Origin: Akkermansiaceae bacterium
GTDB lineage: Bacteria; Verrucomicrobiota; Verrucomicrobiia; Verrucomicrobiales; Akkermansiaceae
Assembly (NCBI GenBank): GCA_903875675.1
Contig: CAIQXC010000670.1
Location: forward strand, 1 to 37,373
Reading direction: 5' to 3'
DNA length: 37,373 nucleotides
In this document: positions 10,821 through 26,761 of the stretch, one piece after another
How positions within the stretch are numbered: the stretch's first letter is position 1
Layout: each line of letters opens with the position of its first letter
Notes under the pieces: generated by a model
What the model saw: the letters and a program-made list of their open reading frames with translations, nothing else
Databases searched by the model: none
What the model was told of the DNA's origin: nothing
Translations under genes and position numbers: made by a program

Positions 10821-10907
10821 GCGCCGGGGATGCTGGCGCGGGGGCGGCTCGGGTGGCAAGCTTTTGGTGCTGGTCAGCTGTGGATGGGCAGGGTAGTTTG
10901 TCGCCGG

Positions 10908-11633
10908 ATGATCTTGGGATTGATGGAACCATCGGGCTTGATCGAACGGGGCGGACCTCTGGTCTGGATCCTGTTAGCTCTGGCGTTTGTCGGCACGGTC
11001 TGCGTGATCGATCGCTTGTTTTATTTCCACCGGGCCCGCATCAACGTCGGGGACTTGCTGGTGGGGCTGGCGCATCACATCCGGCGCCGGGCATTTGCGG
11101 AGGCGTTGCACGAAGCGGCGCGGGCACCCGGCCCGGTGGCACGGGTGACCCATGCGGCGCTGCTGCGCTACTACCTGCCGCGGCAGGATTTGCGCGATGT
11201 GGTGCAGGAGGCCGGCCAGTTGGAAGTACCGCAAATCGAAAACAACATCCGTGCCATCCTTGGCGTGGCTCTCTTGGCACCTCTGGTGGGCATGCTCGGC
11301 ACCATGGTCGGCATGGTCGAGACCTTCCAGCTCGTCAGCGAACAAGGCAGATTCTCCGGCCCTGGCGAACTCTCCGGCGGAGTCTTCACCGCCTTGATTA
11401 CCTCAGTGGTGGGACTGACCGTGGCGGTGCCCATGTATGTGTTTTACCTGTTTTTCCTAGGACGCGCCAAGCGCTTGGTGCAACGCATCGAACGAGCCGG
11501 CATTGAAATGGTCAACCTGATCTCAGACGCCCGGGAGGAAGCCGAATTCGCACCGTTCCGCAGTGAAGTGAGCGCTGGCAAAGGCGTGGCCAATTCCCCT
11601 CGCAAAGTTTCCCCTCGCGAAGTTTCCCCATGA
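10908..11633 (+). CDS. ExbB/TolQ/MotA-family proton channel protein (241 aa)
   Basis: This is an inner-membrane stator-type subunit that, with ExbD-type partners, uses proton flow to do mechanical work on the envelope. Three helices are seen: about 17-38, 115-140 and 160-185. The helix-2 signature GMLGTMVGM (128-136) and the helix-3 stretch FTALITSVVGLTVAVP carry the conserved Thr residues of the family. The tail has two copies of a short SPR(K/E)V repeat. The start is the ATG at 10908 (another at 10923). The frame extends further upstream but only through sequence opposite the SDR gene. Its stop overlaps the next start (ATGA), so it is translationally coupled to the ExbD-like gene. It heads a five-gene operon to 13558. 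Confidence 0.88.
   Translation: MILGLMEPSGLIERGGPLVWILLALAFVGTVCVIDRLFYFHRARINVGDLLVGLAHHIRRRAFAEALHEAARAPGPVARVTHAALLRYYLPRQDLRDVVQEAGQLEVPQIENNIRAILGVALLAPLVGMLGTMVGMVETFQLVSEQGRFSGPGELSGGVFTALITSVVGLTVAVPMYVFYLFFLGRAKRLVQRIERAGIEMVNLISDAREEAEFAPFRSEVSAGKGVANSPRKVSPREVSP
11595..11629 (+). repeat. 15-bp tandem repeat at the end of the ExbB gene
   Basis: Two 15-bp units (11595-11609 and 11610-11624, TCCCCTCGC-AAGTT with one difference) and the first five bases of a third lie at the 3' end of the gene and encode SPRKV-SPREV-SP. They run directly into the ATG of the ExbD-like gene. Confidence 0.85.
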
Positions 11634-12091
11634 AGTTGGAGATGACATTGCCTGAACGCCCCGGCTTCCTGCACGCGCTGCCGGCCTTCAATCTGTTTTT
11701 ATTGCTGATGCTATTTTTCAGGTTAGGGCCAGCGCTTGTCTCGCAATCTGGGGTGATGTTGGATATGCCGCCATCCAAGTTTCAAATGGAGCGCTTCCGC
11801 GACACCCTAGTAGTCACCTTGAGCCCCGGCCAAGGCGGCCCGAGCATCCACTTGCAACGTCATCCGGTGACGCTGGAAGAATTGGCGCAGCGCCTCGACA
11901 GCCTGCGTGCCGAGGGAGTCGCGGCCAAATCCGTCATTTTGCTACAAACCGATGCAGCAACGCCGGTGGGTGAAGAGCGCACGGTGGCAGAGTTGATCGT
12001 AGGCAAGGGGTTCCGCCTTGCGATGGTTGGCAAAGCGCCTCCCAAACTGCGGACTGCTGCCAGCCCAGACCCCAGCCAACCGGATTCATGA
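11630..12091 (+). CDS. ExbD/TolR-like protein lacking the key Asp (153 aa)
   Basis: The topology is that of ExbD: a short cytoplasmic tail, one membrane helix (about 17-37), and a periplasmic domain with the typical (I/V)-L-Q-T-D-A strand and a final alpha/beta unit. The helix reads LPAFNLFLLLMLFF. Aligned by eye with the two ExbD proteins at 18491 and 18937 (PMIDVLLVLLIFF and PMVDVVFVIMLFF), Asn21 sits where ExbD proteins have the proton-carrying Asp. It is coupled by overlapping stop/start codons to genes on both sides. It either works with another acid residue, forms a non-proton-conducting complex, or relies on a different ExbD. Assignment is good on context and topology. Confidence 0.78.
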   Translation: MKLEMTLPERPGFLHALPAFNLFLLLMLFFRLGPALVSQSGVMLDMPPSKFQMERFRDTLVVTLSPGQGGPSIHLQRHPVTLEELAQRLDSLRAEGVAAKSVILLQTDAATPVGEERTVAELIVGKGFRLAMVGKAPPKLRTAASPDPSQPDS

Positions 12092-12882
12092 GCCCGGCCC
12101 AGACCAACCTCAAGGATCTGAACAGCAGGCCGGTGCAGCTGCTATTCCACTGGCTCAGCCCCTCCAACTCGCTTGTGACCACTTGCGCCCCCATCGTCTT
12201 GGCCACCCTAGTCTTCGCTGTGCTGCTGGGCTTGGTGCGCATCAAGGTGGCCGCCCCTCAATTCAAAATGGCCAGCAAAGCGTCGTGGATGCTGCTGCCT
12301 GCCAGCGCCAACGGTGTGTCATGGGCACTGCGAGCCAAAGAGGGAGGCCCAATGCTGGCACGCTACGAACCAACCGAGTGGCAGGGGTATGCACCCTTGG
12401 CGCAAGAATCGTTGCTGGCGACGCGCCTCCCCGCCCTCGCCTACGGCCCAAGCCTGCGGCCGCTACCTGGCATCCCGCTCGCCCAAGCTCAGGCGCTCGC
12501 CGACAAGGGCGAAGCCGTTCTGCCGCGCCGTGTGCCGATAAGCGCCGCACGCCAAAACCTGCCTGCGGGCCGCTTGGCACCTGCGCTCTATCCCTTGTCT
12601 GCGCTCGGAACCAGTAGCCTGCCACACGATTTGCCGACGTTCACTGGAGAGGTCGATTCAGCACTGGCGGCCACCGACTGGCGCTTTTTGCTGCGCCTCC
12701 ATCCTGACGGCGGGGTGGCCGAGGCGGTGTCGCTGACGCGGGCGACGGGAACGGCCGCTGCCCCCTTGGAAAACTGGCTCCATGGGGTGGTTTTTGATCC
12801 AAAACTGGCTGCCGACGGTGGCTGGCTGGCCGTCGGAATCAGATTTAACAACTCACCCGCAAATGGAACTGACCCTCACTGA
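12088..12882 (+). CDS. Divergent TonB-like energy-transducer protein (264 aa)
   Basis: It has a cytoplasmic tail of about 28 residues, one membrane helix (about 29-51), a long Ala/Leu/Pro-rich periplasmic stretch, and a C-terminal module (about 197-258) reading WRFLLRLHPDGGVAEAVSL then LENWLHGVVFDP and WLAVGIRF. That order (strand with DG turn, helix, F-x-P, final strand) matches the TonB C-terminal domain pattern. The membrane helix lacks the S-x3-H motif of TonB. It occupies the TonB position after ExbB and ExbD, with ATGA overlap upstream and overlap with the following gene. I infer a divergent transducer. A simple structural protein is the alternative. Confidence 0.6.
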   Translation: MSPAQTNLKDLNSRPVQLLFHWLSPSNSLVTTCAPIVLATLVFAVLLGLVRIKVAAPQFKMASKASWMLLPASANGVSWALRAKEGGPMLARYEPTEWQGYAPLAQESLLATRLPALAYGPSLRPLPGIPLAQAQALADKGEAVLPRRVPISAARQNLPAGRLAPALYPLSALGTSSLPHDLPTFTGEVDSALAATDWRFLLRLHPDGGVAEAVSLTRATGTAAAPLENWLHGVVFDPKLAADGGWLAVGIRFNNSPANGTDPH

Positions 12883-13102
12883 GTTTGTGTGTTTGGCGCT
12901 GGGCGGTTCACTCGCACTGGTGTTGTTCGCCGCCCTGCTCTCACGCTTCTTCCATTCCCGTGGAGAACGCCATGCCCTCGCCCGCCGAGTCATCTGCCGC
13001 CTCTGTTTGCACGCCTTCGAGGATTCCTCGCTCAGCCCCATCGTCACCTGCCCAGCTTGCAGGGCCAGCACCGAACGCCGCCACCGCGGCAACCTCGGGT
13101 GA
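12863..13102 (+). CDS. Small membrane protein with zinc-ribbon-like motif (79 aa)
   Basis: An N-terminal membrane helix (about 8-28) is followed by a basic region and two CxxC knuckles, CRLC and CPAC, about 20 residues apart, which suggests a cytoplasmic or membrane-proximal zinc ribbon. It starts inside the end of the previous gene (20 bases overlap) and ends 18 bases before the YkgJ-type gene, so it is a member of the ExbB operon. I do not recognise a named family. The frame is open upstream, but the ATG at 12863 puts the helix right after the start. Confidence 0.66.
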   Translation: MELTLTEFVCLALGGSLALVLFAALLSRFFHSRGERHALARRVICRLCLHAFEDSSLSPIVTCPACRASTERRHRGNLG

Positions 13103-13120
13103 ATCCCGCACCAACACCCG

Positions 13121-13558
13121 ATGACCCCCATCGCAGCCATTCAAGCCGTGCGTGCCGTCTATGCCGAGTTGGCATGCCTTCCTCTCCAGCGCTCCTGCAG
13201 CACGCTGACCGAGTGCTGTCGCTTCCGCCTCACCGGACGCACGCCCTACCTGACCCGCGGCGAATCGTTCGTGGCCGCCTCTGCCTGGCGGGCAACCGGG
13301 CGCACCTCCATCCCGCGCCCCTCTGACGGTGCCTGCCCTTTCCTCGCTACCCATGGCCGTTGCCAAATCTACGACGGCCGCCCCTTCGGCTGCCGCACCC
13401 ATTTTTGCCACGCCGCCGGCGGGCCCTATCGCCGCTCCGATGTCCGCAACCTCATCCGCCAACTCGAAACCATCGACGCCCAGTTGGGCGGTTGCGGCGC
13501 AATGAACCTGCTCACCGCCCTCCAACACACGCTTGCTGCCTCACGACAAGCCAGATGA
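13121..13558 (+). CDS. YkgJ-family cysteine cluster protein (145 aa)
   Basis: The cysteine pattern C-x5-C-C near residues 26-33, then GACPFL, GRC-x-IY-GRPFGCRTHFC, is the YkgJ (UPF0153) signature. These are small cytoplasmic proteins thought to bind Zn or an Fe-S cluster. Biochemical function is unknown in the family. It is the last gene of the ExbB operon. After it there is no gene until 13651. A role in maturing or regulating the membrane complex is only an inference from position. Confidence 0.82.
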   Translation: MTPIAAIQAVRAVYAELACLPLQRSCSTLTECCRFRLTGRTPYLTRGESFVAASAWRATGRTSIPRPSDGACPFLATHGRCQIYDGRPFGCRTHFCHAAGGPYRRSDVRNLIRQLETIDAQLGGCGAMNLLTALQHTLAASRQAR

Positions 13559-13584
13559 AACACCGGACTTTGACAGTTAGATCA

Positions 13585-13602
13585 AAAAATCATTTGATTT
13601 TT
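13585..13602. promoter_or_regulatory. Perfect 18-bp palindrome, possible operator
   Basis: AAAAATCA-TT-TGATTTTT is a perfect palindrome (8-bp arms, 2-base centre). Its right arm overlaps the proposed -35 of the next promoter. It could be an operator for the operon at 13651, or a weak AT-rich hairpin ending the preceding operon. Confidence 0.5.
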
Positions 13603-13627
13603 CATTGACCCGGTGGAGCAATATGAT
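13599..13627 (+). promoter_or_regulatory. Likely promoter of the TPR-ExbBD-toroid operon
   Basis: TTTTCA (13599-13604) and TATGAT (13622-13627) are separated by 17 bases. The -10 matches the consensus in 5 of 6 positions. Transcription would start about 17 bases before the ATG at 13651. The 18-bp palindrome overlaps its -35. Confidence 0.5.
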
Positions 13628-13650
13628 CAACCTCCTGAAAACGCTTTCGC

Positions 13651-16614
13651 ATGGCAGCCAGAAACTCGACCTCCTTACTTGCCCTTATCGCGTGGACCGC
13701 GCTATCAACAGTCCTGATTGATACTGCTGCGGCGCTGCCTCAGGCGACCCCGCCACTGGTGCCACCAAAGGCACCCATCAAGACCGTGGCGATCGCCGCC
13801 CTAAACCGAATGCTTCATGAAGCCGAGGCGGCGTTTGAAGCCAAGGAATACGCGACGGTCGTCACCAAACTTGAAGCCCTCATCAAGCTTCTCAACCCTC
13901 AGACGGCCAATGACGAAATGATGGAGGAGTTGTACTTCAAAATCGGCCTTGCCAATCTGCTCGCCAGCCAATTCGCCGAAGCTGAGACCGCCTTCACCGA
14001 CTGCGCCACCAAGTATCCCAATGGGATGTTTGCCAGTCGCTGCGCCTTGGGCGTCGGCAAGGCCTGCATGGGTCAGGACAACGCAGCCAAGAAAGAACTC
14101 GCCATCAAGGTGTTCAAGGTGGCCATGAAGGATCCAAAGCTCAATGCCGAAGCGGGTCTGGCCCTAGCCATGCTCTACAGCGAGACCGGCAAGCGCAAGG
14201 AAGCCATGGACGTCTTCAAGTCGTTGATGGGCGCGGACATCCGCAGCGCCAGCCAAACCACCGCTGCCGTGGGCGTCATCAACCTGCTCGCCGACGAAGG
14301 CAAACTCGAGGACCTCGTGTATTACCTCGACCGCCTGACGAATCAAGCCGGGGTGCGGGACGCCATTGCTTGGTACACCAATCAGGTGATTGTGCGCGGC
14401 GATGAATGCATGATGGCTCACGACTTTGATACGGCTCTGGCCATCTTTCAAACGATTCCCTCCCGCAACCAGATTGTCGATATTCAGACGCAGTCGCTCG
14501 ACGCTCAGCGCAAGATCATTGCCATTCTTGATCGCGCCATTGCCAAGGAGGATGCTGACGAAAAGAAGACCCCCAATGCACCCTTGGTACGCGGCATTGC
14601 ACGCGAACTCGTCGCAAGCCTCAACCCAGCCCTCGAAGCGAATGAGAAGGCTCTCGCCGCGATCAAGGAAATCAAGGATCTCGATGCCTCCCTGCTGTAT
14701 CGCCGCGGCCACTGTTTCTATGAACTCACGCGTCGTGAGGAGGCACGTCTTTGCTTCAGCACCCTGCGCCTGAAGTACCCCACCTACAAGGAGAACAAGA
14801 TCGCCGCCTACACCGAAATCATGATCATGCAGGAGCTCAAAAAGAGCGCCGGCTTGCTCGAACTCTGCAAGGCCTATCTCACCGCCTATCCAGAATCCAG
14901 CGACGCCGAAGCCGTCGCCACCCTCGCCGGCGAACTCCTCGTCGAACAAGCAAAATGGCCGGATGTCATCACCTACTATGCCGACCTCGAATCCCGCTTC
15001 CCAAAATCCACCCACCTCGACCGCTTTATCTTCTATCAAGGACTGGGACATTTCCTCAACGCCGGGGATGCAGCCGATTTCGCGCTGTCCACCCCCATGT
15101 TTGAAAAAGTCAACCGAAGCTACCCCAAGAGCGAGTTGTACGAACCCGCCCTTTACTATCTGGCGATGACGTATTTCCTGAGCAACGAGTACAAGAAAAC
15201 GGTGGCCGCCTGCTCCGAGTACCTCAGCAAGTATCCCAACGGATTGTATGCCGGCGACATGCAATATCGCCTCTCGTTCGTCGATTCGAACGACCCGCGA
15301 GTGCAGCCGGACAAGATCATCAACGACATTGAGGAGTTCATGAAGAACCATCCGACTGACGTCTCCAATGGTTCGATGCTGTGCCTGCTCGCGGATACCT
15401 ACAAAAAGAAGAACATGGACGACGAAGCTGCGGAGGCGTTCAAGAAGGCCGTCTGGAGCAAGAGCCCCGATGACGTAACCCAATACGCACTGGATTCCGC
15501 CACCACAATTCTTCAAGCAAAGAAGGATTGGAGCGCCATCGCTGAAATGCACGGTGCTTTCCTCAAGGACAATCCCGACAGCCAGCTGGCACTCCTGTCA
15601 GCAGGCAAAGTGGTGCAGATGAAAATCCGCGAAGGCAAAGGCGAGGAAGGCGCTCGAATCCTCGCCGAAAGCCTGCGCACCCGCATCAGCAATCCCAAAG
15701 TCCAACAAGTCGAGTACCTCCTCGACCTCATGGTCCAAACCCTCGTACCGCGCAAAAAACCTGCCAAGGAGGAAATGGAAGCCCTCGCCGAGCAACTCGA
15801 CGAACAACTCGTCGAAACCCTCAAACAGGTAGTCGGCGACAAGCCCAATCCCACCGCCACCGCTCGCATGTTCTACGCCCAAGCCCGTCTGAGCCAGTTG
15901 CTCTATCGGACGAGCCGGACCGACCGCTCAGACCTCTTGCTCAAGGGCATCGCCACCAACTATGCCAGCGAACCGGCCGTGCTCAGCCCGACCCTCCTCT
16001 CCGTGTGTGGCGACATTCTGCTTCAGGAAGAAAATCTCGACGGTGCACAAGCCATGTACCGACGCCTCGATGATAGCTACAAAGACTCTCTCTTCGCGGA
16101 TGCCGGCCCACTCGGCCTCGGTAACGTCGCCCTCGCCCGAAAAAAACCCGAGGAGGCCCTCAAAATCTTCGAGGATACCCTCGCGAACAATAAGGGCACC
16201 TCACGCTTCTGCGAAACCACCCTCGGCAAAATCCAAGCCCTCGTCGACCTCGGCAAATTCGAAGATGGCCGCAAATTGGCCGAGCAAGTGGTCGGCGACA
16301 AAATGTTCCACGGCGAAATGGCCGGCAAAGCCTATCTCATGCTGGCCGACAGCTACCGGGTCGAGGCCGCCCAAGCCGCCCCCGGATCTGATCCGAATGA
16401 ACTCATGCGCAAGGCCTATGCCACCTACCAACGGATGTGCATCACCTACCAAAGCCTCCCGGAAATTTGCGCCGAAGCGTATTGGCAGGCCGCTGAAACT
16501 GCCAAGGGACTCAATGAATTCGGCCTCGCCTCGGAGAACTTGAAAGCACTCACCACCCTTCCTAAACTTCAAAACACCAGGCGTGCCAGAGAAGCCAAGG
16601 ACAAATCCTTATGA
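13651..16614 (+). CDS. Exported TPR-repeat protein (987 aa)
   Basis: A signal peptide (about 1-29, ending in a small-residue AAALP stretch) is followed by an almost wholly helical protein built of TPR-type repeats. Units such as AEAAFEAKEYATVVTKLEAL, AETAFTDCATKYPNGMFA, ARLCFSTLRLKYPTYKEN, AAEAFKKAVWSK and AQAMYRRLDDSYKDSLFAD recur, many with the (K/R)-YP pattern seen in YbgF/BamD-like repeats. The protein is probably periplasmic and a protein-protein scaffold. It starts the operon that includes ExbB, two ExbDs and the toroid protein, and its stop overlaps the next start. It recalls the TPR partners of Tol-Pal and TonB systems, but at this size it is not a simple YbgF. Confidence 0.85.
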   Translation: MAARNSTSLLALIAWTALSTVLIDTAAALPQATPPLVPPKAPIKTVAIAALNRMLHEAEAAFEAKEYATVVTKLEALIKLLNPQTANDEMMEELYFKIGLANLLASQFAEAETAFTDCATKYPNGMFASRCALGVGKACMGQDNAAKKELAIKVFKVAMKDPKLNAEAGLALAMLYSETGKRKEAMDVFKSLMGADIRSASQTTAAVGVINLLADEGKLEDLVYYLDRLTNQAGVRDAIAWYTNQVIVRGDECMMAHDFDTALAIFQTIPSRNQIVDIQTQSLDAQRKIIAILDRAIAKEDADEKKTPNAPLVRGIARELVASLNPALEANEKALAAIKEIKDLDASLLYRRGHCFYELTRREEARLCFSTLRLKYPTYKENKIAAYTEIMIMQELKKSAGLLELCKAYLTAYPESSDAEAVATLAGELLVEQAKWPDVITYYADLESRFPKSTHLDRFIFYQGLGHFLNAGDAADFALSTPMFEKVNRSYPKSELYEPALYYLAMTYFLSNEYKKTVAACSEYLSKYPNGLYAGDMQYRLSFVDSNDPRVQPDKIINDIEEFMKNHPTDVSNGSMLCLLADTYKKKNMDDEAAEAFKKAVWSKSPDDVTQYALDSATTILQAKKDWSAIAEMHGAFLKDNPDSQLALLSAGKVVQMKIREGKGEEGARILAESLRTRISNPKVQQVEYLLDLMVQTLVPRKKPAKEEMEALAEQLDEQLVETLKQVVGDKPNPTATARMFYAQARLSQLLYRTSRTDRSDLLLKGIATNYASEPAVLSPTLLSVCGDILLQEENLDGAQAMYRRLDDSYKDSLFADAGPLGLGNVALARKKPEEALKIFEDTLANNKGTSRFCETTLGKIQALVDLGKFEDGRKLAEQVVGDKMFHGEMAGKAYLMLADSYRVEAAQAAPGSDPNELMRKAYATYQRMCITYQSLPEICAEAYWQAAETAKGLNEFGLASENLKALTTLPKLQNTRRAREAKDKSL

Positions 16615-17591
16615 AACTTCGTGCCCTCACACCTCCGCTCCCATTCCGTAGCGTGCTGCTCTCACTGAGCACGGGTGGCTTGCTTGCCCTCTCCCAAGCT
16701 CTCGCAGCCCCGGACGCTGCCGCCCCGACTGCTCCCGCAGCCCCGGCCAAGCCCGCCGCTCCTGCCAAACCTGCCAAACCTGGAACTCCCGCTGCCGCCC
16801 CAGCAGCCGCCCAACCCCCGACAGCCCTCGGGCCCACCCAAATCGTCCTCCAAAACGGGGTGTCCCTGCCATTGTCGGCAGTCGCGCTGAAAGGCGAAAA
16901 TTACGAAGTAAAGGTGGAAACCGGGCGCTTCGAAGTCGGCAAGACCATCCCGGTAACCTCGGTGGACCATGTGTTTGGTGATAAACCTGCGGCCATCAAT
17001 CAAGCCATCGCCTTGGTGCTAACCGGAAAACCGGTCGATGGTAGAAAGCTTCTCATCCCGCTTCTCGCCGAGCACAAGGATTCGGCAAAACTGCCGGGCA
17101 ACTTCTGGTTGGAGGCGGCTCGTGTGTCGCTCGTAGCTAACGCATTGGAAGGCGCTGGCCCCCAATGTGATTCCCTCGGCAAAGAGATTTCCGCCGTCTC
17201 GCCTGTATCACCCGATCCCTTCGTCGCCCTCAGCAAAGCTCTGGTGATGCATAAAACCGTCAAACTCGCCGATCGACAGGCCGCCCTCAAGGCCCTCACA
17301 ACCGACGCCCAACCCGCAGACGTGTGCGCCTATGCCAGCTTCTTCCTGGCACGTTTGCTGCAAGAAGAAAAACGCGATGCCGAGGCGCTGGAAGCCTACC
17401 TCGCCGTGCCCTGCTTGTTTCCCTCCGGCGGAATGATGCTTAACGGGATGGCCCAGTTAAAGGCAGCAGAGTTCCTAACTGCCGCTGATCGCCGCAGCGA
17501 GGCGGTTGCTCTGGCCCAGTCTGCGATGCGCTACACCAAGGATACCTTGGGTCACGATCTGGCCAACGACCTCTACCAAAGCATCAAATAA
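16611..17591 (+). CDS. Exported Ala/Pro-linker protein with helical repeats (326 aa)
   Basis: A signal peptide (about 1-32) leads into an Ala/Pro/Lys-rich flexible linker (about 33-72, repeats of PAKPA). A small beta module follows (IVLQNGVSLPLSAVALKGENYEV), then a helical domain with TPR-like helices (FFLARLLQEEKRDAEALEAYLAV). No enzyme motif is seen. It overlaps the TPR gene by four bases and is 62 bases before ExbB, so it belongs to the same operon. The Pro/Ala linker suggests reach across the periplasm. I do not recognise a named family. Confidence 0.78.
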   Translation: MKLRALTPPLPFRSVLLSLSTGGLLALSQALAAPDAAAPTAPAAPAKPAAPAKPAKPGTPAAAPAAAQPPTALGPTQIVLQNGVSLPLSAVALKGENYEVKVETGRFEVGKTIPVTSVDHVFGDKPAAINQAIALVLTGKPVDGRKLLIPLLAEHKDSAKLPGNFWLEAARVSLVANALEGAGPQCDSLGKEISAVSPVSPDPFVALSKALVMHKTVKLADRQAALKALTTDAQPADVCAYASFFLARLLQEEKRDAEALEAYLAVPCLFPSGGMMLNGMAQLKAAEFLTAADRRSEAVALAQSAMRYTKDTLGHDLANDLYQSIK

Positions 17592-17653
17592 CGCTGATCC
17601 CATCCATCCAAACTCTCAAACACCCCCCCAACCACCCGCATACCTCCAACTCA

Positions 17654-18454
17654 ATGAAAAATGCCATTAAATACGCCGCCGTCGCGGCCCTGATGTTCCT
17701 GCCCATGGTCGCTTTTGGCGCGGATGGTGCCCAGCAAGCCGTCGTGGTCAAAAAAACCTTCATCCAAGTCCTCAAGGAGGGCGGTTGGTGTATGTATCCC
17801 ATCGGTCTCTTCTCCATTGGCACCGTTTGGCTCATCATTGACCTTTGGATTCGTACCAACGCCAAGAAAATGACCCCCGAACCCGATGTGTTCAGCGCCA
17901 AACAGGCGTTTCTCGCAGGCGACTACGTAACGGCTTATCAATCCATGAAATCCGCCGTCAGCCCCTTCGCCAAAGTGATCCAAGCCGCGCTCAGCTCGGT
18001 TGGCCACGGCAAGGATGCCACCGAGGAAGCTCTCCAGGCCGAAGTCGATAAAGTCAGCTCAACCCTGCAAACCCGCGTCAACTACCTCTCCGTTATCGGC
18101 GTTTGCAGCCCGATGGTCGGGCTGCTCGGCACCGTCTCCGGGATGCGCGGTGCCTTCGCCGCACTCGGTACCTCGGGCATCGGCGACACCTCAAAGCTCG
18201 CCGAGCACATCGGCGAAGTGCTCATCGCCACCGCATCGGGCCTCTTCATCGCCATTCCCGCCTTCATGGGATTCTATTTCCTGCGCAACAAGCTCCAAAC
18301 TGCCATCCATCACCTGGAGAGCGAAGCTTCGGCCTTGTTCCGCAATGCACCCTATGACTACCTCAGGGATGCGGATGTCGGCCAGGAAGAGACCTTCGCA
18401 GCGATGCCGCTGTGGATGCAAACCGAGCAGGCCGCCGCACCGGAATCCTTCTGA
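17654..18454 (+). CDS. ExbB/TolQ/MotA-family proton channel protein (266 aa)
   Basis: By family this is the main membrane subunit of a proton-driven ExbB-ExbD motor. It has an N-terminal signal-like helix (1-22, ending AFGAD), as in the longer ExbB proteins. Three membrane helices follow at about 45-66, 143-170 and 188-212. The signature SPMVGLLGTVSGM lies in helix 2, and VLIATASGLFIAIPAF in helix 3 holds the conserved Thr/Ser. A cytoplasmic loop with a helical hairpin sits between helices 1 and 2. It is the first gene of the motor part of the operon and precedes two ExbD genes. Confidence 0.92.
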   Translation: MKNAIKYAAVAALMFLPMVAFGADGAQQAVVVKKTFIQVLKEGGWCMYPIGLFSIGTVWLIIDLWIRTNAKKMTPEPDVFSAKQAFLAGDYVTAYQSMKSAVSPFAKVIQAALSSVGHGKDATEEALQAEVDKVSSTLQTRVNYLSVIGVCSPMVGLLGTVSGMRGAFAALGTSGIGDTSKLAEHIGEVLIATASGLFIAIPAFMGFYFLRNKLQTAIHHLESEASALFRNAPYDYLRDADVGQEETFAAMPLWMQTEQAAAPESF

Positions 18455-18490
18455 TGTCCCAATCCTTTCCCACCCTAACAACCAAAGACC

Positions 18491-18940
18491 ATGGCAGGCG
18501 GCGGCGGCAGTACTGAAAGCGGCGAACCGGAATTCCAGATCGCGCCGATGATCGACGTGTTGCTGGTGTTGCTCATCTTCTTCATGTGCATCACCACTGC
18601 GGAAATTTTGAAGGTGGACTCGTCCATCACCTTGCCGGTATCGGCCAGTGCAAAACCGCACGATGCCAAGATGACCAAACAGGAAATCGCCATCAACGTG
18701 CGTTGGAATGCCCAAGCCAATAAGGCCACGGTCTTGGTTGAAGACAAGGAATTCAAGACCCCTGGTGACATGATCGCTTATCTGAGGAGCCGCATCGAGG
18801 CCAAGCCCAATATGCGTGCCCTCATCCGTGGTGACCGCATGTTGCCGGCCTCCGAGATTCAGAAAGTGATGGACCTCGTCGGCCAAGCCACATTTGTGGA
18901 CATTGCCTTCTCAGCAGCCAGCAAGGAAAAAGCCAAATGA
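18491..18940 (+). CDS. ExbD/TolR-family protein, first copy (149 aa)
   Basis: A cytoplasmic tail of about 17 residues leads to one membrane helix with the proton-carrying Asp22 in APMIDVLLVLLIFFM. A periplasmic ExbD domain follows (LPVSASAKP, ALIRGDRMLPASEIQKVMDLVGQA). All expected family features are present. Its stop overlaps the start of the second ExbD (ATGA). Paired unlike ExbDs with one ExbB suggest a heteromeric peptidoglycan/partner-binding dimer. Confidence 0.92.
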   Translation: MAGGGGSTESGEPEFQIAPMIDVLLVLLIFFMCITTAEILKVDSSITLPVSASAKPHDAKMTKQEIAINVRWNAQANKATVLVEDKEFKTPGDMIAYLRSRIEAKPNMRALIRGDRMLPASEIQKVMDLVGQATFVDIAFSAASKEKAK

Positions 18941-19389
18941 AAAAGCGCCACAAGAAGGAATCCTCTGAAGTCAACCTCGGCTTCCAAATCGCTCCGATGG
19001 TTGACGTGGTGTTTGTCATCATGCTCTTCTTCATGGTGCTGGCCGGGGCCGTTCAGACGGAAAACACGCACAACACCAAGTTGCCCGGCACCATTCCGGT
19101 GAAGGATGACACGCCGACGCCCGACGAAATCTCCATCCGTATCGAAGACGACGGACAGGTATTTCTCAATGACGAACCGGTGGACAAACCTGAGGCCAAG
19201 ACCTTGCCAGAGTTGGCTGGTAACCTCATCAACCTTCACAACCTCTCCATCTCCGCGAATTCCCCCGAAGTGATGGTGACCATCTACGCCAACGAACTCG
19301 CCCGCTATGAGCGCGTCATCGACGTATTGGATGCCCTCACCCGGGCAAAAATTGGCAATGTGACGTTTCAAGCCGTCGCGCCAGAGTAA
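18937..19389 (+). CDS. ExbD/TolR-family protein, second copy (150 aa)
   Basis: It has a short basic cytoplasmic tail, one helix with Asp23 in APMVDVVFVIMLFFMV, and a periplasmic domain in which LNDEPVDKPEAKTLPELAGNL and VMVTIYANELARYERVIDVLDAL give the usual ExbD strand-helix order. It is distinct from the first copy outside the helix, so the pair is not a recent duplication. It overlaps the preceding gene by four bases and is followed after 43 bases by the toroid gene. Confidence 0.92.
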   Translation: MKKRHKKESSEVNLGFQIAPMVDVVFVIMLFFMVLAGAVQTENTHNTKLPGTIPVKDDTPTPDEISIRIEDDGQVFLNDEPVDKPEAKTLPELAGNLINLHNLSISANSPEVMVTIYANELARYERVIDVLDALTRAKIGNVTFQAVAPE

Positions 19390-19432
19390 CATGTTTCTGT
19401 AGTTTGAAAAGCCCCCAACCAACCCGACCATT

Positions 19433-21022
19433 ATGAACCATCAGGAAGAATACGAACAAGAGCAGGACCAAAATCTGGAAGAACTCGAAGCCATGGGTCC
19501 AGCCCCCATCACCAAATTGACCTTGTGGGATAAAATGGGCGGCCGCGCTCTAACCGTCGCGGTGGTGGTTCACTTGCTCATTCTGGCTCTTGGGGCGTTT
19601 TGGATTTTCCAAATCATCAAGCAGCCTGAAATTATTCCTGACTTCTTGCCACCAGGTGGTGGCGGCGGCGAGCGCAGCGCGGATCATGCCGTCAAGGAGA
19701 AGAAAATGAAGACCATCGTGCCCATCTCCAAGGCAAAACGGGTGGTCGCTGAAGGGGCGCGCTCCACTTACACGATCCCCGACCAAGGCGATAAATTCGG
19801 CGAAATGTCCCCCCTAACGTCACTCGGCGGCGGCGGCATGTCCGGCGGTTTGGGCGGTTCCGGCTCGGGCCATGGCTTTGGCAAAGGCAGCGGCAATGGC
19901 AATGGCATGGGCAACGGCAAAGGCAGCGGCAGGCTCTTCGGTCTCATTCCTCTGGCGATGAGCAAGCGCTGCTCCAAGGGCGACCGCCTCCAGCGCATCG
20001 CCGATAACGGCGGCGTTCCTGCCTGCGAGGATGCTGTGCTCAAAGGTCTGCGCTGGCTCAAGGCCAATCAGAATGCCGACGGATCCTGGAGCGGTCAGAG
20101 CTCGGTGGCCATGACCGGCCTCGCCCTCCTCGCCTACTTCGGCCACTGCGAAACCCCGGCCTCCGATGAGTTCGGCGAATCCTGCCTCAAGGGTATCGTT
20201 TACCTCGTTGAAATTGGCATGAAGAACGATGGCAAAATTGCCGATAACTACACCGCCAACCACTGGTCCTACGAGCACGGCATCGCCACTTATGCCCTCG
20301 CCGAGGCTTACACGTTCTGCAAAGAAATCGGCCAGGTCGTCCCCTACCTCGATGAAGTCGTCCAAAAAGCCGGCCAATTCATCATCGACCATCAGCACCA
20401 AAACGGCGGCTGGGCATATGCCTATGCGGTGACTGGCGGCCATACCGACATGTCGGTGGTCGGCTGGCAGATCCAGGCCATGAAAGCCTGCCTCCACACC
20501 GGCCTCAAGTTCCAAGGCCGGGCAACCTGCCTCACTCGTGCTTGGAAGTACCTCGCGTCCTGCCAGAACGTCAACGGTGGCTATGGCTACTCCGGCCCCA
20601 ACTCCGGCGTGGCGGATTATTTTACCCTCACCGGTGTGGGTGCCCTCTGCCTGCAAATGTGGGACAAGGGCAACGGCATGGAAGTGAACCATGCGATCAA
20701 GTACATCGAGGATCACACGAAGTTCGACTACAACGGCGTCTGCAGCGACCTCTACGGCCACTATTACGAAAGCCAGGCGATGATGCAACGTGGCGGCGAT
20801 GCCTGGAAATTCTACAATGGCATCTTCCGCGACCAAGTCCTGAACAATCAGGAAGCCGATGGCTCGTGGAAGGCCCCGGGCGGTGGTGGCAAGATCCGTG
20901 CCGCAGCGCCTAGCTATCAAGGCGACAAGGTCTATCGTACCTGCCTTTGCACCCTGATGCTCGAAGTGTACTACCGCTTCCTCAGCACTGGCGTCGGCAG
21001 CCACAGCGGTGGCATCCAATAG
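19433..21022 (+). CDS. TonB-type anchor fused to alpha/alpha toroid (prenyltransferase/squalene oxidase repeats) (529 aa)
   Basis: An acidic cytoplasmic tail (1-25) leads to one membrane helix (about 39-62) with His47, the same kind of in-membrane His as in TonB. A periplasmic stretch and a Gly/Asn/Ser-rich linker (about 132-167) follow, then a toroid domain (about 185-515). Repeats in the domain show the QW-like pattern: NADGSWSG, QNGGWAYAYA, NVNGGYGYSG and EADGSWKAPG, each followed by a helix. The DxDD acid motif of squalene-hopene cyclase is not seen, so cyclase activity is unlikely. It is last in an operon after ExbB-ExbD-ExbD, the place of TonB. I infer a proton-driven transducer whose output domain is the toroid. 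Family membership (squalene-cyclase-like fold) is firm, the role is inference. Confidence 0.88.
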   Translation: MNHQEEYEQEQDQNLEELEAMGPAPITKLTLWDKMGGRALTVAVVVHLLILALGAFWIFQIIKQPEIIPDFLPPGGGGGERSADHAVKEKKMKTIVPISKAKRVVAEGARSTYTIPDQGDKFGEMSPLTSLGGGGMSGGLGGSGSGHGFGKGSGNGNGMGNGKGSGRLFGLIPLAMSKRCSKGDRLQRIADNGGVPACEDAVLKGLRWLKANQNADGSWSGQSSVAMTGLALLAYFGHCETPASDEFGESCLKGIVYLVEIGMKNDGKIADNYTANHWSYEHGIATYALAEAYTFCKEIGQVVPYLDEVVQKAGQFIIDHQHQNGGWAYAYAVTGGHTDMSVVGWQIQAMKACLHTGLKFQGRATCLTRAWKYLASCQNVNGGYGYSGPNSGVADYFTLTGVGALCLQMWDKGNGMEVNHAIKYIEDHTKFDYNGVCSDLYGHYYESQAMMQRGGDAWKFYNGIFRDQVLNNQEADGSWKAPGGGGKIRAAAPSYQGDKVYRTCLCTLMLEVYYRFLSTGVGSHSGGIQ

Positions 21023-21092
21023 CTTATATGTGACGGAAGGTAATTTAGCGCTTGTCAGGCGCTCCCATTTTGTGATTCCCTTAGCGTGATAG

Positions 21093-21121
21093 GTGCCGCC
21101 CACTCGTGGCGGCACTTTTTT
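21093..21121 (+). terminator. Rho-independent terminator after the ExbBD-toroid operon
   Basis: A perfect 8-bp stem GTGCCGCC / GGCGGCAC (21093-21100 and 21108-21115) with a 7-base loop is followed by six T (21116-21121). It ends 11 bases before the GTG start of the pseudopilin gene, so the cassette must be fed by read-through or by a promoter within the hairpin region. A weaker hairpin (AGCGC / GCGCT) lies just upstream near 21047-21063. Confidence 0.9.
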
Positions 21122-21132
21122 CCCCACGCTTT

Positions 21133-21792: not shown

Positions 21793-21816
21793 CCCCAAAC
21801 AGAAAGAGCGAAACCA

Positions 21817-22353
21817 ATGGTAGCCCTCTCCCAATTTTGGATCAAACCACGCCGTCCTCAGCGAGGGCCGATTGTGGGTTCCTCGCTCATCGAAGTGCTC
21901 ATGGCCATGGGCATACTGGCGGTGGTGCTGCCACTGATATTCGCTGTGCTGGCCCGTGCCAGCCAAAGCTACGCCGAGGCGCAAGCTGAAACCCGTTGCC
22001 TGTCGATCCTGCCCGCCTGCATGAATGAAATTGAGGCCGCACAGCAAGGCACGACTCGCTATCTACCTGCCCTCCCCTGCGGCGTCCTCTTCCCCGCTCC
22101 CGGTACCATTCTCGCCCTCGCCTTTGCCCGCGATGGCCGTCTCCTCGGCTGCGTCGCCCCTGCGGCCTACCTCGCCGGCACCCGTCGACTTGCCGACGAG
22201 CCGATCCGCTATCTCGCCTCGTTGCACACCGAGCCCGCTCCAGCCCAACCCAACATGCCGACCATGCTCCACCTGCGCATCACTCTGGAGTATCCACCGG
22301 CTGCCCCAATGGCCAAGCGTCGGCACCTGGATTTTCACACATGCATCCCATGA
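21817..22353 (+). CDS. Pseudopilin, Verru_Chthon cassette protein B-like (178 aa)
   Basis: A long basic leader (1-21) ends in Gly21, followed by SSLIEVLMAMGILAVVLPLIF, giving the G-S-S-L-I-E prepilin site with the conserved Glu at +5. The mature domain is about 155 residues with two or three conserved-looking Cys. It ends in a strand reading LHLRITLEYPP, as in PilV/GspI-like minor pilins. The start ATG is 24 bases after the D gene stop, and the C gene starts inside its end. Position and size fit TIGR02598. Confidence 0.8.
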   Translation: MVALSQFWIKPRRPQRGPIVGSSLIEVLMAMGILAVVLPLIFAVLARASQSYAEAQAETRCLSILPACMNEIEAAQQGTTRYLPALPCGVLFPAPGTILALAFARDGRLLGCVAPAAYLAGTRRLADEPIRYLASLHTEPAPAQPNMPTMLHLRITLEYPPAAPMAKRRHLDFHTCIP

Positions 22354-23120
22354 ACACCACCGGCCACTTGCGACGCGCCTTCACTCTCATCGAGGTGTTG
22401 CTGGCGATGAGCGTGGGACTGCTGGTGCTCATCCTCGCGCTTTCGATGCTTGGGCGAACCCGCGATGAATCCGCACGCCTCGACGAGAGTGTCGCCGCTG
22501 ATCGGGATGCCCGCGCCGTAATCACCCAGCTCACCGCCGATCTACAAAGCGCCTCGTTTCACCAAGCCAGCGTGTTCGACCAAAGCGACACCCCATGGCC
22601 CGGCGACCGCCTCGGCATCTTCAGTCTTCAAGCCCCGGACGCACAAGCGCCGGCTGACCACATGGGTGACCTTTGCGCCATTCATTACTACCTCAAGGAT
22701 CAGCTCATCTCAGGCAAGACCGTTCGCTGCTTGATGCGCGGTTTCCGCCCTAGCAGCGACACATTCCAAGCCCTCCGCCTCAAACAGCCCACCTCCCTCT
22801 TCACCTGTTCCAAACGCGACGAAGCCCTCGCCTTCGGGATCATCTCATTCGAGGCCCGCCCGCAAATCCGTAACCCCGCAGGCCAATGGCAGGCCTGGGA
22901 CCCCCTTATGGCTCAAGCCCCCGCCGCCATCGCTTTCCGCCTCGTCATCGCCCGCCGAGAACTCGCCGCCAAACTCATCCATACCGCCGCTTGGAACGGC
23001 GACGGCACCGCCCGAGGTCTGTTAGGAATGCCCTCCATGGCTCTCAGCAACCGCCACCTCGAAGTGTACACAGCCATCATCCGCTACGGTCATCCGGCCC
23101 TAACTGAACGTAGGCTTTAA
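22341..23120 (+). CDS. Pseudopilin, Verru_Chthon cassette protein C-like (259 aa)
   Basis: The leader ends RRA followed by FTLIEVLLAMSVGLLVLILAL. The residue before the cut is Ala13 rather than Gly, which PilD-type peptidases can accept but which is less common. Glu18 is at +5. The globular domain is PilW/GspJ-like in size. It begins at ATG 22341 (overlapping gene B by 13 bases) or ATG 22350. It is followed 13 bases later by the large A gene. TIGR02599 is the family I would expect to match. Confidence 0.8.
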   Translation: MHPMNTTGHLRRAFTLIEVLLAMSVGLLVLILALSMLGRTRDESARLDESVAADRDARAVITQLTADLQSASFHQASVFDQSDTPWPGDRLGIFSLQAPDAQAPADHMGDLCAIHYYLKDQLISGKTVRCLMRGFRPSSDTFQALRLKQPTSLFTCSKRDEALAFGIISFEARPQIRNPAGQWQAWDPLMAQAPAAIAFRLVIARRELAAKLIHTAAWNGDGTARGLLGMPSMALSNRHLEVYTAIIRYGHPALTERRL

Positions 23121-23133
23121 CCGTCCCGAAGCC

Positions 23134-26076
23134 ATGTCCCAATACGCCTTGAAACCAGCCTTCATCCTGCCGACAGTGCTCTTTGTTATCTCGGCCTTGC
23201 TCATCCTCGCCGTAGGCCTGCTCCTCAACATAGGCCTCGAACGCCACTCCGCTCGCTCGTACGTTGACTACCAACGCGCCGAATTGGCCGCTACCGCCGG
23301 CCTCCAACAAATCGAAGCCAGCCTCAGGCACGCCACCTCCAACGACACGTTCCTTGTGTTGGAATCCATCTGCAAACCATCCAAGCCGACCGACCGCCAA
23401 CCCGCACCCCACCTATTCATCGCGCAGGGCCGGAGCGCCCCGAACCACACATTCATCTTCAGTTACCTCCCGCTCTTCAGTGCCACGCGTCAACCGGCGG
23501 ACACGACTTGGCTCAGCGCGCCGGACGCTGCAGGACTCGTGCCTGCGGTGTCTGACGTCCACCTCGATCTCAGTCCCCTGCCCTACCTTGAGCCGCTCCG
23601 CCTCGCCTGGGTTCCCATTCTCAATGAACGCCACCAGCTCGTCGCTCGCTACGCCTTCTGGGTTGAGGACTTGCAGGCTAAACTCGATCCTCGGTCCATT
23701 GGCAATGCCGATGGCCCCAACGCCTCCGCGCTTGCTCCAGGCTGGCCATTTCCCGCTCCAGCCCTCGATCCCAACCCCGACCATCCAGCGCTCGGCCCCA
23801 TCGCCCTTCACGCCATCGATCCAGCCTCCACCACCGCCCAACCCGGCAAGCTCCCTCAATCGCTCATCTCCAACCGCCATGCTTTGATCTCCCCAGACTC
23901 GCTGCTCGCCGCCGCCAACTTCCATCCCCCTCTAACCCGCGACCCCCACGGCCATCTCACTGATCCGGCGGCCTGCGCCGTCGAGGAAAATTTGGCAACC
24001 ACCACCCGCCCCTACCTGGAGCGGCCGTGCGTCCCCTACGTCTCCGGCATCGCCGCCTCAGTCGCGGCATCCCCCAAACTCAACCTCAACTCCCTCCTGG
24101 CCCTAGGCCCGGACGGCGTCGCCCCTATGGCCGCATTCATCAAGCTGGCCCTGCCGGAATTTGAAACCCGCAAAGGTGGGTTCCCCGACGACTACCTCCA
24201 ATCCCTTGCCGCCAACGCGATCGACTACGCAGACGCCGACTGCCAATCCACCCTCGTCGCTGGCAGCCACCGCGGCATCGATGCCTTTCCGCTCATCAGC
24301 GAGGTGATCCTGCAAGTCCACTACGCCGGTGAGCAACAACTCAACGGACGCCGCATCCTCAATTGGCGCCTCAAGTTGTTTGCCGAACTCTGGAACATGT
24401 CCAACATCGACGTCAGCGGCACCTTGCGCCTCAGCTACGAAGTGGCCCTGCCTATGGACGGTATCGGTGCCGGTTCCAGTTCCAAACGCTTCGACGACCC
24501 CGCCCTGCTCGACGATTCCACTAAAACCAGCCACCACCTCACAAAAATCGCCGGCAAATTCTGGTCGCCTGAGATCAACGCGACCCTGCGTGCCAATGAG
24601 TACAAAACCTATGAGGCCGCCGACGTTGCCTACGCCTTGGACGTCGGCCCCACCAGCATCACGGTGGCTAACCATTTCAGTCTGACCGAGCCGGAAGGTG
24701 CCACCGGCATCTCCCTGCTTTGGAACGGCCAGGAAGTGGATCGCGCCACCGCCATCATCCGCCAAAAATCGGGCCTCGAGTTCAATATCTCCACCCCTCG
24801 CTATGCTTCCAAGGCCACCGTCGCCGCCCTGAGCTTCGGGGCCTTCGGCTCCGAAATTGACAACCCCGGAGACCCTCGCATTTCCTACTACCTTCGCAGT
24901 ACTCCTCTCGCCGAAAATGCCAATCCGGAAAACTCCAGCCCTAACCGCCGCAACATCCGCCGCAGCACCATTTACGATGCAGACTCACCCCGCAAACCCA
25001 AAACCTACGGCAGAGTGCTGCCATCGGAATGGCCGGACGGTGGCCATGATTCCGCCGTCGGATCCTGGCCGCTGTCTGAGGACGACGCCGTGACCCCCAC
25101 CGATGCACGCTACCTCTGGGCCCAATCTCCCGTCGCCTGCCAAGCCCCCCAACGCATCTCAAATGCCGGACGATTCTTCAGCGCCACCGAACTCGGCCAC
25201 GTCTTTGACCCGGTCTTATGGCTGCCCACCTTCGATAATCCACAGGACACCGCTTCCATCCGCAGGGGACTCATGCCCGCCAACCGCTGTGCCTGGCCCG
25301 ACGTGCTCGCCGCCAGCCCTCCCAGCACCGACCACGGCGGCGGCAATTCGCTGCGCATCGGCCGCCCGGAACACGCGGCCTTTGACCAACCCGGCAAGCG
25401 TGCCTTTCACCTGCTGGATTTGTTCCATGCCGGCCGCTCGCGCTCCCCGGAGCCCGCCCTTCGCGAGGGCCATCTGGTCGAAATCTGCGGCCATGTGAAT
25501 CTAAACACCGCCACCAGGGATGTCCTGCGCGTGATGGCCGCCGGCGCTCTGGGACAGGACCCATCGCTGGCAACCGTCCCTGACCCCCTCACCCATCAGG
25601 CCGCGCCTCTCATGGCTCCCCCACCCACTCTAACCACTCTATACGCCCCGTCCACCGGTAACCAATCCGAAGCAGACTGCATCGCCGACGCCATCATCCG
25701 CTCGCGACCGTTTGCCAGTCCCTCGCAACTTGCCATGGTCAAGGATCCGGATGCCAAGCCGATCTTCGGCAACCCTAACATGTACCGCCCCGGCATCCAC
25801 GTACCCAACAACACACGCGTCCAATGGAGTGATGCCGCCGCAGAAGAGGTGTTCGCCCGCATGTACGAAGCTTCCACGGTTCGCTCGCGCAACTTCCGTG
25901 TGTGGGTCGTCGGCCAAGCCCTCGCGCCGACCCCTACCGCGAACTCCGCGCCGCAAGTTCTCGCAGAGGTCCGCAAGGTCTTCACCCTGTTTGCCGATCC
26001 CGGCCAGCGAAACGGCGACGGCGATATCAACCCTGATCAATCGAAATGCTCCGTCATCCATGAAAACTCCTTCTGA
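23134..26076 (+). CDS. Large pseudopilin-associated protein, Verru_Chthon cassette protein A-like (980 aa)
   Basis: An N-terminal helix (about 9-32: FILPTVLFVISALLILAVGLLL) without the usual charged +5 Glu is followed by RAELAATAGLQQIEASL. This is the layout of PilX/GspK-like proteins. A very long external part with beta-rich domains follows. Near the C-terminus are a helix-hairpin-type stretch (VEICGHVNLNTATRDVLRVMAAGALG) and RSRPFASPSQLAMV, as in GspK helix-hairpin segments (NxNTA). This is the biggest member of the cassette (TIGR02600 type). In type II secretion GspK caps the pseudopilus, so a tip role is a reasonable inference. The next gene overlaps its end by 17 bases. Confidence 0.8.
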   Translation: MSQYALKPAFILPTVLFVISALLILAVGLLLNIGLERHSARSYVDYQRAELAATAGLQQIEASLRHATSNDTFLVLESICKPSKPTDRQPAPHLFIAQGRSAPNHTFIFSYLPLFSATRQPADTTWLSAPDAAGLVPAVSDVHLDLSPLPYLEPLRLAWVPILNERHQLVARYAFWVEDLQAKLDPRSIGNADGPNASALAPGWPFPAPALDPNPDHPALGPIALHAIDPASTTAQPGKLPQSLISNRHALISPDSLLAAANFHPPLTRDPHGHLTDPAACAVEENLATTTRPYLERPCVPYVSGIAASVAASPKLNLNSLLALGPDGVAPMAAFIKLALPEFETRKGGFPDDYLQSLAANAIDYADADCQSTLVAGSHRGIDAFPLISEVILQVHYAGEQQLNGRRILNWRLKLFAELWNMSNIDVSGTLRLSYEVALPMDGIGAGSSSKRFDDPALLDDSTKTSHHLTKIAGKFWSPEINATLRANEYKTYEAADVAYALDVGPTSITVANHFSLTEPEGATGISLLWNGQEVDRATAIIRQKSGLEFNISTPRYASKATVAALSFGAFGSEIDNPGDPRISYYLRSTPLAENANPENSSPNRRNIRRSTIYDADSPRKPKTYGRVLPSEWPDGGHDSAVGSWPLSEDDAVTPTDARYLWAQSPVACQAPQRISNAGRFFSATELGHVFDPVLWLPTFDNPQDTASIRRGLMPANRCAWPDVLAASPPSTDHGGGNSLRIGRPEHAAFDQPGKRAFHLLDLFHAGRSRSPEPALREGHLVEICGHVNLNTATRDVLRVMAAGALGQDPSLATVPDPLTHQAAPLMAPPPTLTTLYAPSTGNQSEADCIADAIIRSRPFASPSQLAMVKDPDAKPIFGNPNMYRPGIHVPNNTRVQWSDAAAEEVFARMYEASTVRSRNFRVWVVGQALAPTPTANSAPQVLAEVRKVFTLFADPGQRNGDGDINPDQSKCSVIHENSF

Positions 26077-26761
26077 TATTCTCCACCTCGCCCTGGCCGC
26101 GGCCGCCTGCCTTCTCAGCGGCTCTCTAACGTCCACAGCAGCCCCGGCTACCCCTGCCGATATCCCCGCCTTTGCCCGCCTCATCGATGCCGTGGCGCAA
26201 GGCCAGGACAAACTGCGGCTCTTCATCGACGGTGAATCGATGAATCCCGACGGCTACATTCTGGGCGACGTCACCGGGGGCATCGGTCTCAAACCCGGCC
26301 CGCATGAATTCACCCTCAAACGCCCCGGCGTGAGTGATGGTGTGACCCGCATCACCCTTGCCGCAGGTCACACCATCACCCTCATCGCCTTTGCCGAACA
26401 AATCCCCGCATCCGAAAACAAACCCGCGTATTGGGCCATACGTATTCTCCGACTCCGGCAAATGGAACCCGTCACCAAACGCTCCGCCACCTTTGTCTCC
26501 GTCTCACATACCCCTGAACACGAAGTGGAAATCCGTTCCCCTAACGGAAAATGGACTGCTGTCACGGTCAAACGCCTGGCCTTAACTCAATCCCCCATCC
26601 TCTATCCAGAGGGCTACGTTCCCCTGCGCTGCCACTCGCAAAAACTCCCCTCCATCCCGGTCGGCGGGCCAGGCAACTACCTCGTCCTCCTCTACGACGA
26701 TGCTGCCGGCCTCCTCCAGTCCCTCAACCTCCAAGACTACAAATACCTCAGCGCAGATTGA
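26060..26761 (+). CDS. Secreted protein at the end of the pseudopilin cassette (233 aa)
   Basis: A signal peptide (about 1-27, ending STAA) precedes an all-beta protein with a short N-terminal helix. It contains LFIDGESMNPDGYILGDVTGG and HEFTLKRPGVSDGVTRITLAAGHTITLIA, which looks like a small immunoglobulin- or PEGA-like sandwich, and ends in a strand-rich region (GGPGNYLVLLYDDAAGLLQSLNL). It overlaps gene A by 17 bases, so it is co-translated with the cassette. I do not recognise a named family. A surface or adhesive cargo of the pseudopilus is only a guess. Confidence 0.78.
   Translation: MKTPSDILHLALAAAACLLSGSLTSTAAPATPADIPAFARLIDAVAQGQDKLRLFIDGESMNPDGYILGDVTGGIGLKPGPHEFTLKRPGVSDGVTRITLAAGHTITLIAFAEQIPASENKPAYWAIRILRLRQMEPVTKRSATFVSVSHTPEHEVEIRSPNGKWTAVTVKRLALTQSPILYPEGYVPLRCHSQKLPSIPVGGPGNYLVLLYDDAAGLLQSLNLQDYKYLSAD

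Follow-up and report, generated by a model that had tools for sequence, protein, structure and literature searches.

The locus raises the question of whether two ExbB/ExbD operons and a set of pseudopilin genes that follow one another on one strand belong to a single envelope machine. The DNA analyzed here, which we call the window, is an entire contig (C670; 37,373 nucleotides, 37.4 kb) from the draft genome of an Akkermansiaceae-related bacterium (952 contigs, 92% complete), and its nearest named record is L172 (MAG Umea1p3_bin-495), in which the toroid protein is 99% identical. From 10923 to 26761 every gene lies on the + strand, forming a block of about 16 kb and 16 genes in which the largest intergenic gaps are about 90–110 bp. 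A preliminary description of this DNA had noted the two ExbB/ExbD operons, the exported 987-residue TPR protein, the toroid protein, and five secreted or pseudopilin genes, on one strand with little spacing, and all are found there as it placed them; it was likewise correct that the cluster holds no secretin, assembly ATPase, or PilC-like gene, as our search within the cluster recovered none of the three. No tRNA or Rfam feature was found in the window, and outside the block, at 29486–30796 on the − strand, lies a fused purine enzyme with SAICAR synthetase and AIR carboxylase domains in one protein. Blast maps of relatives split the block into three modules that correspond to recurrent operons, namely module A (exbB-exbD-264aa-zinc ribbon), module B (TPR-326aa-exbB-exbD-exbD′-toroid), and module C (ppD-ppB-ppC-CASA-sec5). 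The features, in gene order, are as follows.

10173–10859, − strand: SDR-family oxidoreductase (NCBIfam FabG/SDR), left border of the conserved block and divergent neighbor in L173, L204, L180, and G237
10923–11633, + strand: ExbB-A (MotA/TolQ/ExbB; Pfam MotA_ExbB, 4e-21); orthologues begin MEPSGL, and 10923 is probably the start, 10908 being the alternative
11630–12091, + strand: ExbD-A, with Asn21 at the position of the proton-carrying Asp (Pfam ExbD, 9e-7; alignments)
12088–12882, + strand: 264-aa protein with one TM helix and a C-terminal region that faintly resembles TonB_C; it is the third gene in operon A and is conserved there
12863–13102, + strand: 79-aa protein with one TM helix and two CxxC pairs (zinc ribbon-like; weak RING-like match); conserved fourth gene of operon A
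13121–13558, + strand: YkgJ-type CxxCxxCC protein (Pfam CxxCxxCC), in some block-bearing species only
13651–16614, + strand: exported 987-aa TPR protein (Pfam TPR_6; TIGR02795, YbgF/CpoB-like, 1e-24)
16611–17591, + strand: exported 326-aa protein (exp326); most copies of module B have it between TPR and ExbB
17654–18454, + strand: ExbB-B (Pfam MotA_ExbB, 3e-26)
18491–18940, + strand: ExbD-B1, Asp22 present (Pfam ExbD, 6e-16); Asp in all orthologues seen, including two rows missed by the search pattern that read PxIDC
18937–19389, + strand: ExbD-B2, Asp23 present (Pfam ExbD, 5e-19); Asp in 43 of 43 orthologues
19433–21022, + strand: toroid protein, with TM helix 37–62 containing His47, disordered Gly-rich linker 67–178, and alpha-alpha toroid 179–515
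21023–21132, + strand: toroid-ppD spacer with two hairpins and compensatory changes; U-tract only in the window's genome
21133–21792, + strand: prepilin-like ppD, in GspH-like position (IV_pilin_GFxxxE; weak Verru_Chthon_D); start corrected to GTG 21133, the ORF caller's 21106 falling within a hairpin
21817–22353, + strand: prepilin-like ppB, GspI-like (weak N_methyl and XpsI/ComGE/GspI)
22341–23120, + strand: prepilin-like ppC, GspJ-like (N_methyl over cut-off; weak Verru_Chthon_C)
23134–26076, + strand: 980-aa GspK-like protein, CASA (GspK model; hhalign to GspK)
26060–26761, + strand: secreted 233-aa protein, sec5 (start corrected to 26060), with no Pfam match; fifth cassette gene in most relatives

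We think it probable that three envelope modules, each autonomous elsewhere, have become united in this region in a lineage-specific manner, with module B acting as a toroid force transducer and module C as a pseudopilus tip set. The distribution of the modules bears on this most directly. In a sample of 73 genomes of the genus, scored for a close CASA and for an orthologue of ExbB-B at 51% identity or more, both genes were present in 38, on the same contig in 6 and on different contigs in 32, a count of separation that is limited by fragmented drafts; the flanks, where long enough, show other genes. The preliminary description had proposed comparing gene order in other genomes and took separation of the cassette from the ExbBD-toroid operon in most genomes with both as speaking against its proposal, and this is the arrangement we found; its view of one cluster holds within the window's clade but not across the genus. 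The six linked genomes are the window's own (G000), G233 (Umea1p3_bin-495, L172), G198 (V1-690, L204), G199 (V1-1361, L173), G232 (LJ-7-9m_bin-1240, L177), and G241 (Loc090519-7m_bin-1587, L180), where we infer the pairing of the G handles with the named records. The whole A-B-C block, from SDR to sec5, is present with its order unchanged in L180, L204, and L173, and is covered in part in L177 (TPR to CASA) and L172 (exp326 to sec5). A comparison of 56 kb of G241 and 37 kb of G198 with the window found in common the SDR-to-sec5 block and otherwise a single 24% match, the neighbors on both sides of the block being different from the window's. In the CASA tree the linked genomes form one well-supported clade, and they group together in the ExbB-B tree. 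Two further genomes group with them: G219, in which B and C lie on different contigs with non-B sequence beyond ppD, and, in the ExbB-B tree, G237, which keeps A and B and has other genes in place of C.

Because the linked six make up one clade, keep the block order, and differ in the genes outside it, the joining would most simply have arisen once and been mostly kept, while being reversible. The sequences indicate that each of A, B, and C forms a conserved operon of its own in most Verrucomicrobiales, and that a single event in the ancestor of the window's clade brought the three together. A chance juxtaposition confined to this contig was considered when a first order-wide sample had B and C apart in every mapped relative, and was discarded once the block was found in other species, where a conserved gene order between different flanks suggests more than chance. 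A neutral neighborhood, created by one rearrangement with too little time for separation and with no functional link, is rather unlikely: it would account for the single origin, for the separated modules of G219, and for the missing cassette of G237, but in G241 and G198 the intact 16-gene block has gene neighborhoods unlike the window's, which argues for some constraint. The genome left out as a control, G123, has orphan toroids without ExbBD. Elsewhere, in L157 (G140; 15582–19990), a distant ExbB-ExbD-ExbD-TPR set lies about 4 kb downstream of the cassette, the sole such case among the mapped unlinked cassettes and possibly due to chance.

Does such constraint reflect a shared machine? Module B occurs without C in the single-contig genomes G103, G189, and G231, and C occurs without B in the well-completed genomes G212, G228, and G197. 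Among genomes at least 90% complete, the association of B with C was not significant (Fisher p 0.41 when any cassette is counted, 0.11 when the close type alone is); across all genomes including drafts, close CASA against ExbB-B gave p 0.009, a value that may come from incomplete drafts without both. Since B and C occur freely apart and complete genomes have B without C, these genomes give no sign that either depends on the other. We found no evidence that the ExbBD motors energize or regulate the pseudopilins, as the preliminary description had suggested; the modules occur independently of each other, with G237 keeping A and B in the absence of the cassette, and the link between motor and cassette remains, as that description also put it, positional only.

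In the toroid-ppD spacer, between B and C, the second of two hairpins is followed by T6 and is terminator-like (about 21090–21117), so that the terminator proposed earlier between the toroid and pilin parts is real in the window; a corresponding two-hairpin spacer is present in L172, L173, L177, L180, and L204, but the U-tract is absent from the sister genome and the four other block-bearing species. Because the spacer lacks the U-tract there, read-through from B into C is possible in block-bearing species other than the window's. In an alignment of six sequences, 8 of the 27 predicted pairs were changed on both sides, and the overall covariation term was about neutral (+0.42). Cassettes elsewhere have different upstream regions, and a dispersed REP element was ruled out, as a search of the window and six other contigs of the same genome found the motif a single time, in the window.

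These observations bear on whether A-B-C is one trans-envelope machine in which the ExbBD-toroid motor energizes, anchors, or gates the pseudopilus in this clade. The whole block is conserved even though its flanks have been replaced, its spacing of about 0.1 kb is kept despite a cassette identity of only 56–69% between block-bearing species, a conserved adjacency that could reflect a real physical partnership and counts against the autonomy of the modules, and both systems act in the periplasm. We nevertheless regard a single machine as improbable, given that the modules lie apart in most genus genomes with both, that each is found alone (including in the single-contig genomes named above), that a clade member lacks C, that a terminator-like hairpin stands between B and C in the window, and that the known pseudopilus motor is an ATPase. 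ExbBD powering of a pseudopilus is possible but unsupported; the specific form in which the clade's ExbBD-toroid transducer and pseudopilin tip make up one machine, with a proton-driven 5:2 motor, and not only an ATPase, moving or gating the pseudopilus, we consider very improbable. That B and C lie so close is most likely a matter of common regulation or of envelope physiology in the clade, and not of motor-driven pilus action.

Operon B encodes two different ExbDs, and the toroid gene lies in one conserved operon with ExbB and both ExbDs, in which the pore Thr and the TM Asp are present. In the AF2 model of the toroid protein the linker (67–178) has pLDDT under 50 and the toroid (179–515) is mostly above 90, and this C-terminal domain is confidently predicted as an all-helical alpha-alpha toroid, being neither a TolA/TonB C-terminal fold nor a vWA domain. 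Where ExbBD genes precede the toroid gene, the TM His was present in every case (42 of 42), whereas among 52 interior toroids whose TM was readable and which had no ExbBD upstream, 44 lacked it, 3 (Akkermansia) had a far-end His only, and 5 had a proper His, an association counted without phylogenetic correction and with five to eight His-bearing toroids lacking adjacent ExbBD genes. The best reading of module B is a TolA/TonB-like force transducer driven by the proton motive force, with an alpha-alpha toroid as its periplasmic end. Proton flow through ExbB5-ExbD-B1/B2 would move the TM helix of the toroid protein, gripped via His47, and the helix would pass force through the disordered Gly-rich linker to the periplasmic toroid; this, partnered by the exported TPR protein, would act on the outer membrane or peptidoglycan. 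Module B would thus work like TolA or TonB, with the toroid as the business end.

The closest folds to the toroid domain are squalene-hopene cyclases (Foldseek 1e-5; Z 27, for the cyclase C-terminal toroid), and QW-like repeats are present, raising the alternative of a terpene cyclase-type enzyme, anchored in the membrane, that would make or modify a lipid and have the ExbBD genes as incidental neighbors. The acidic DxDD motif is not conserved, however: the 2sqc "DVCD" (DVDD in the wild type) aligns to GHTD in the window, the last Asp (D339) alone being retained. Moreover, the protein is tethered to the membrane by a TonB-like helix whose His tracks ExbBD neighbors, and its gene keeps its place in an operon together with ExbB and a pair of ExbDs. 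We consider an enzymatic role remote and retain the force transducer.

Module B resembles TolQRA and ExbBD-TonB in its 5:2-type proton-driven motor genes, His-bearing transducer helix, and CpoB/YbgF-like TPR partner, but it lacks the TolA/TonB C-terminal domain, has two ExbDs, and is accompanied by neither TolB nor Pal in the cluster. A closer counterpart is the family of vWA force transducers of PVC bacteria (Mol Biol Evol 2025; PMC12204202), in which a TPR gene, a TolQ-like gene, and two different TolR-like genes accompany a transducer with a conserved His in its TM helix, a disordered linker, and a globular periplasmic vWA domain. Gene order and transducer layout are alike in the two, and the difference lies in the periplasmic end, an alpha-alpha toroid in place of vWA. 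Neither "toroid" nor "squalene" was found in the main text of that paper, and a literature search for ExbB with squalene and Planctomycetes found nothing.

Toroids and related proteins are also seen in other settings. Orphan toroids without ExbBD neighbors, mostly without the TM His, occur in L073–L083, L097, and others, and tandem toroid sets in Akkermansia-like genomes (L080, L081). The window's own genome has further toroid genes (L148 on C939, L150 on C201, L149 on C914), among which one, with an adjoining ExbD, is 68% identical, one lies beside a TPR987-like gene without ExbBD, and one is inside a 1062-aa protein. Proteins at L071:6897–8240, L072:11833–13269, and L141:2052–3377 combine the same TonB-like N-terminus and Gly-rich linker with a different C-terminal part, some of this type lying directly 3′ of a toroid gene, and are possible further transducer types. 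In many genus members module B is often followed by a more distant ExbB (~32%) and ExbD (~25%), often with a TPR protein (19%), as in L068:10476–14155, L178, L182, L190, L198, and others.

Module C is best read as a GspH-I-J-K-like minor pseudopilin set whose machinery is encoded elsewhere. The products of ppD, ppB, and ppC have prepilin-like N-termini, and three small prepilin-like genes followed by a GspK-like gene match the layout of T2SS GspH-I-J-K and T4P FimU-PilV-W-X; unlike those sets, the cluster has no secretin, ATPase, GspF, or major pseudopilin, and CASA, at 980 aa, compares with about 320–360 aa for the GspK-type proteins seen here. The T2SS GspK model NF037980 matches 20 of 23 CASA orthologues (best 1.2e-7), the window CASA scoring 20 bits against a cut-off of 130, and the N-terminal part of CASA aligns with GspK-type proteins of other Verrucomicrobiota (hhalign probability 81%, E 1.3e-5); a sequence search of the PDB gave no match for CASA. 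Matches of PF03934 to proteins of 755–870 aa in other families were rejected as GspK, most looking like Tex-type HhH proteins or wrong frames. The module also resembles the Verru_Chthon cassette A–D (TIGR02600/02598/02599/02596) in phylum, gene kinds, and an A protein of ~1000 aa, and TIGR02600 matches 9 of 23 CASA orthologues (best 1.5e-8). Because the window proteins match these models far below cut-off (13–25 bits against curated cut-offs of 51–332), the cassette is, as judged by these profiles, a relative of Verru_Chthon and not a member; a literature search on "Verru_Chthon" found nothing. Other contigs of the genome carry secretins (C87, C611, C926, C105), GspF/PilC-type genes (C408, C611), and a prepilin peptidase (C911). 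The motor of a pseudopilus is the GspE/PilB ATPase, and module C would give a T2SS/T4P-type machine, encoded elsewhere and driven by its own putative ATPase, a GspH-I-J-K-like pseudopilus tip in which CASA is K. Orphan pseudopilins are common in the phylum, with 67 PulG-like copies in one genome (PMC13274419).

Module A departs from the expected motor. The cluster had been described as holding two proton-motor operons; two ExbBD operons do exist, but the first is doubtful as a proton motor because ExbD-A has Asn21 where ExbD, TolR, and MotB have the proton-carrying Asp. Asn occupies this site in the window and its clade, and comparison of the Asn-bearing ExbD-A with orthologues in L128–L147, L173, L180, and L204, across 24 tree rows, found N in 17 rows, D in 7, and no fewer than five D/N changes on the tree. 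Of 39 genomes tested, 36 have exbD-A, almost always in single copy; it was not found in the two Akkermansia-like genomes. ExbB-A is strongly conserved and keeps its pore threonines (GMLGT, ALITS). In the window's lineage module A is probably an ExbBD pair without the usual mode of proton conduction. The C-terminus of the 264-aa protein gave a weak hhalign match to TonB_C in a plausible register (33%, E 4.5e-4) with no Pfam match, too little to name the protein TonB, and its AF2 model (pLDDT 39) was too poor for use; ordinary TonB_C genes adjoin ExbB elsewhere in the genome (C549, C331). The YkgJ-type gene downstream of module A is present in L180 and G237, and none was found in L173 or L204.

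The toroid-type force transducer and the Asp-less ExbD are the most notable content of the region. In the ExbD-A family an Asp supposed to be essential has switched to Asn and back, beside an ExbB-A that is highly conserved, raising the question of what role an ExbBD complex has without its proton carrier. The ring-shaped toroid transducer would be a new end on an architecture published in 2025 with a vWA end. For the study of the envelope in this lineage, the locus offers a natural experiment, in which three modules have been joined in one clade, are separate in sister species, and have been partly lost in G237.
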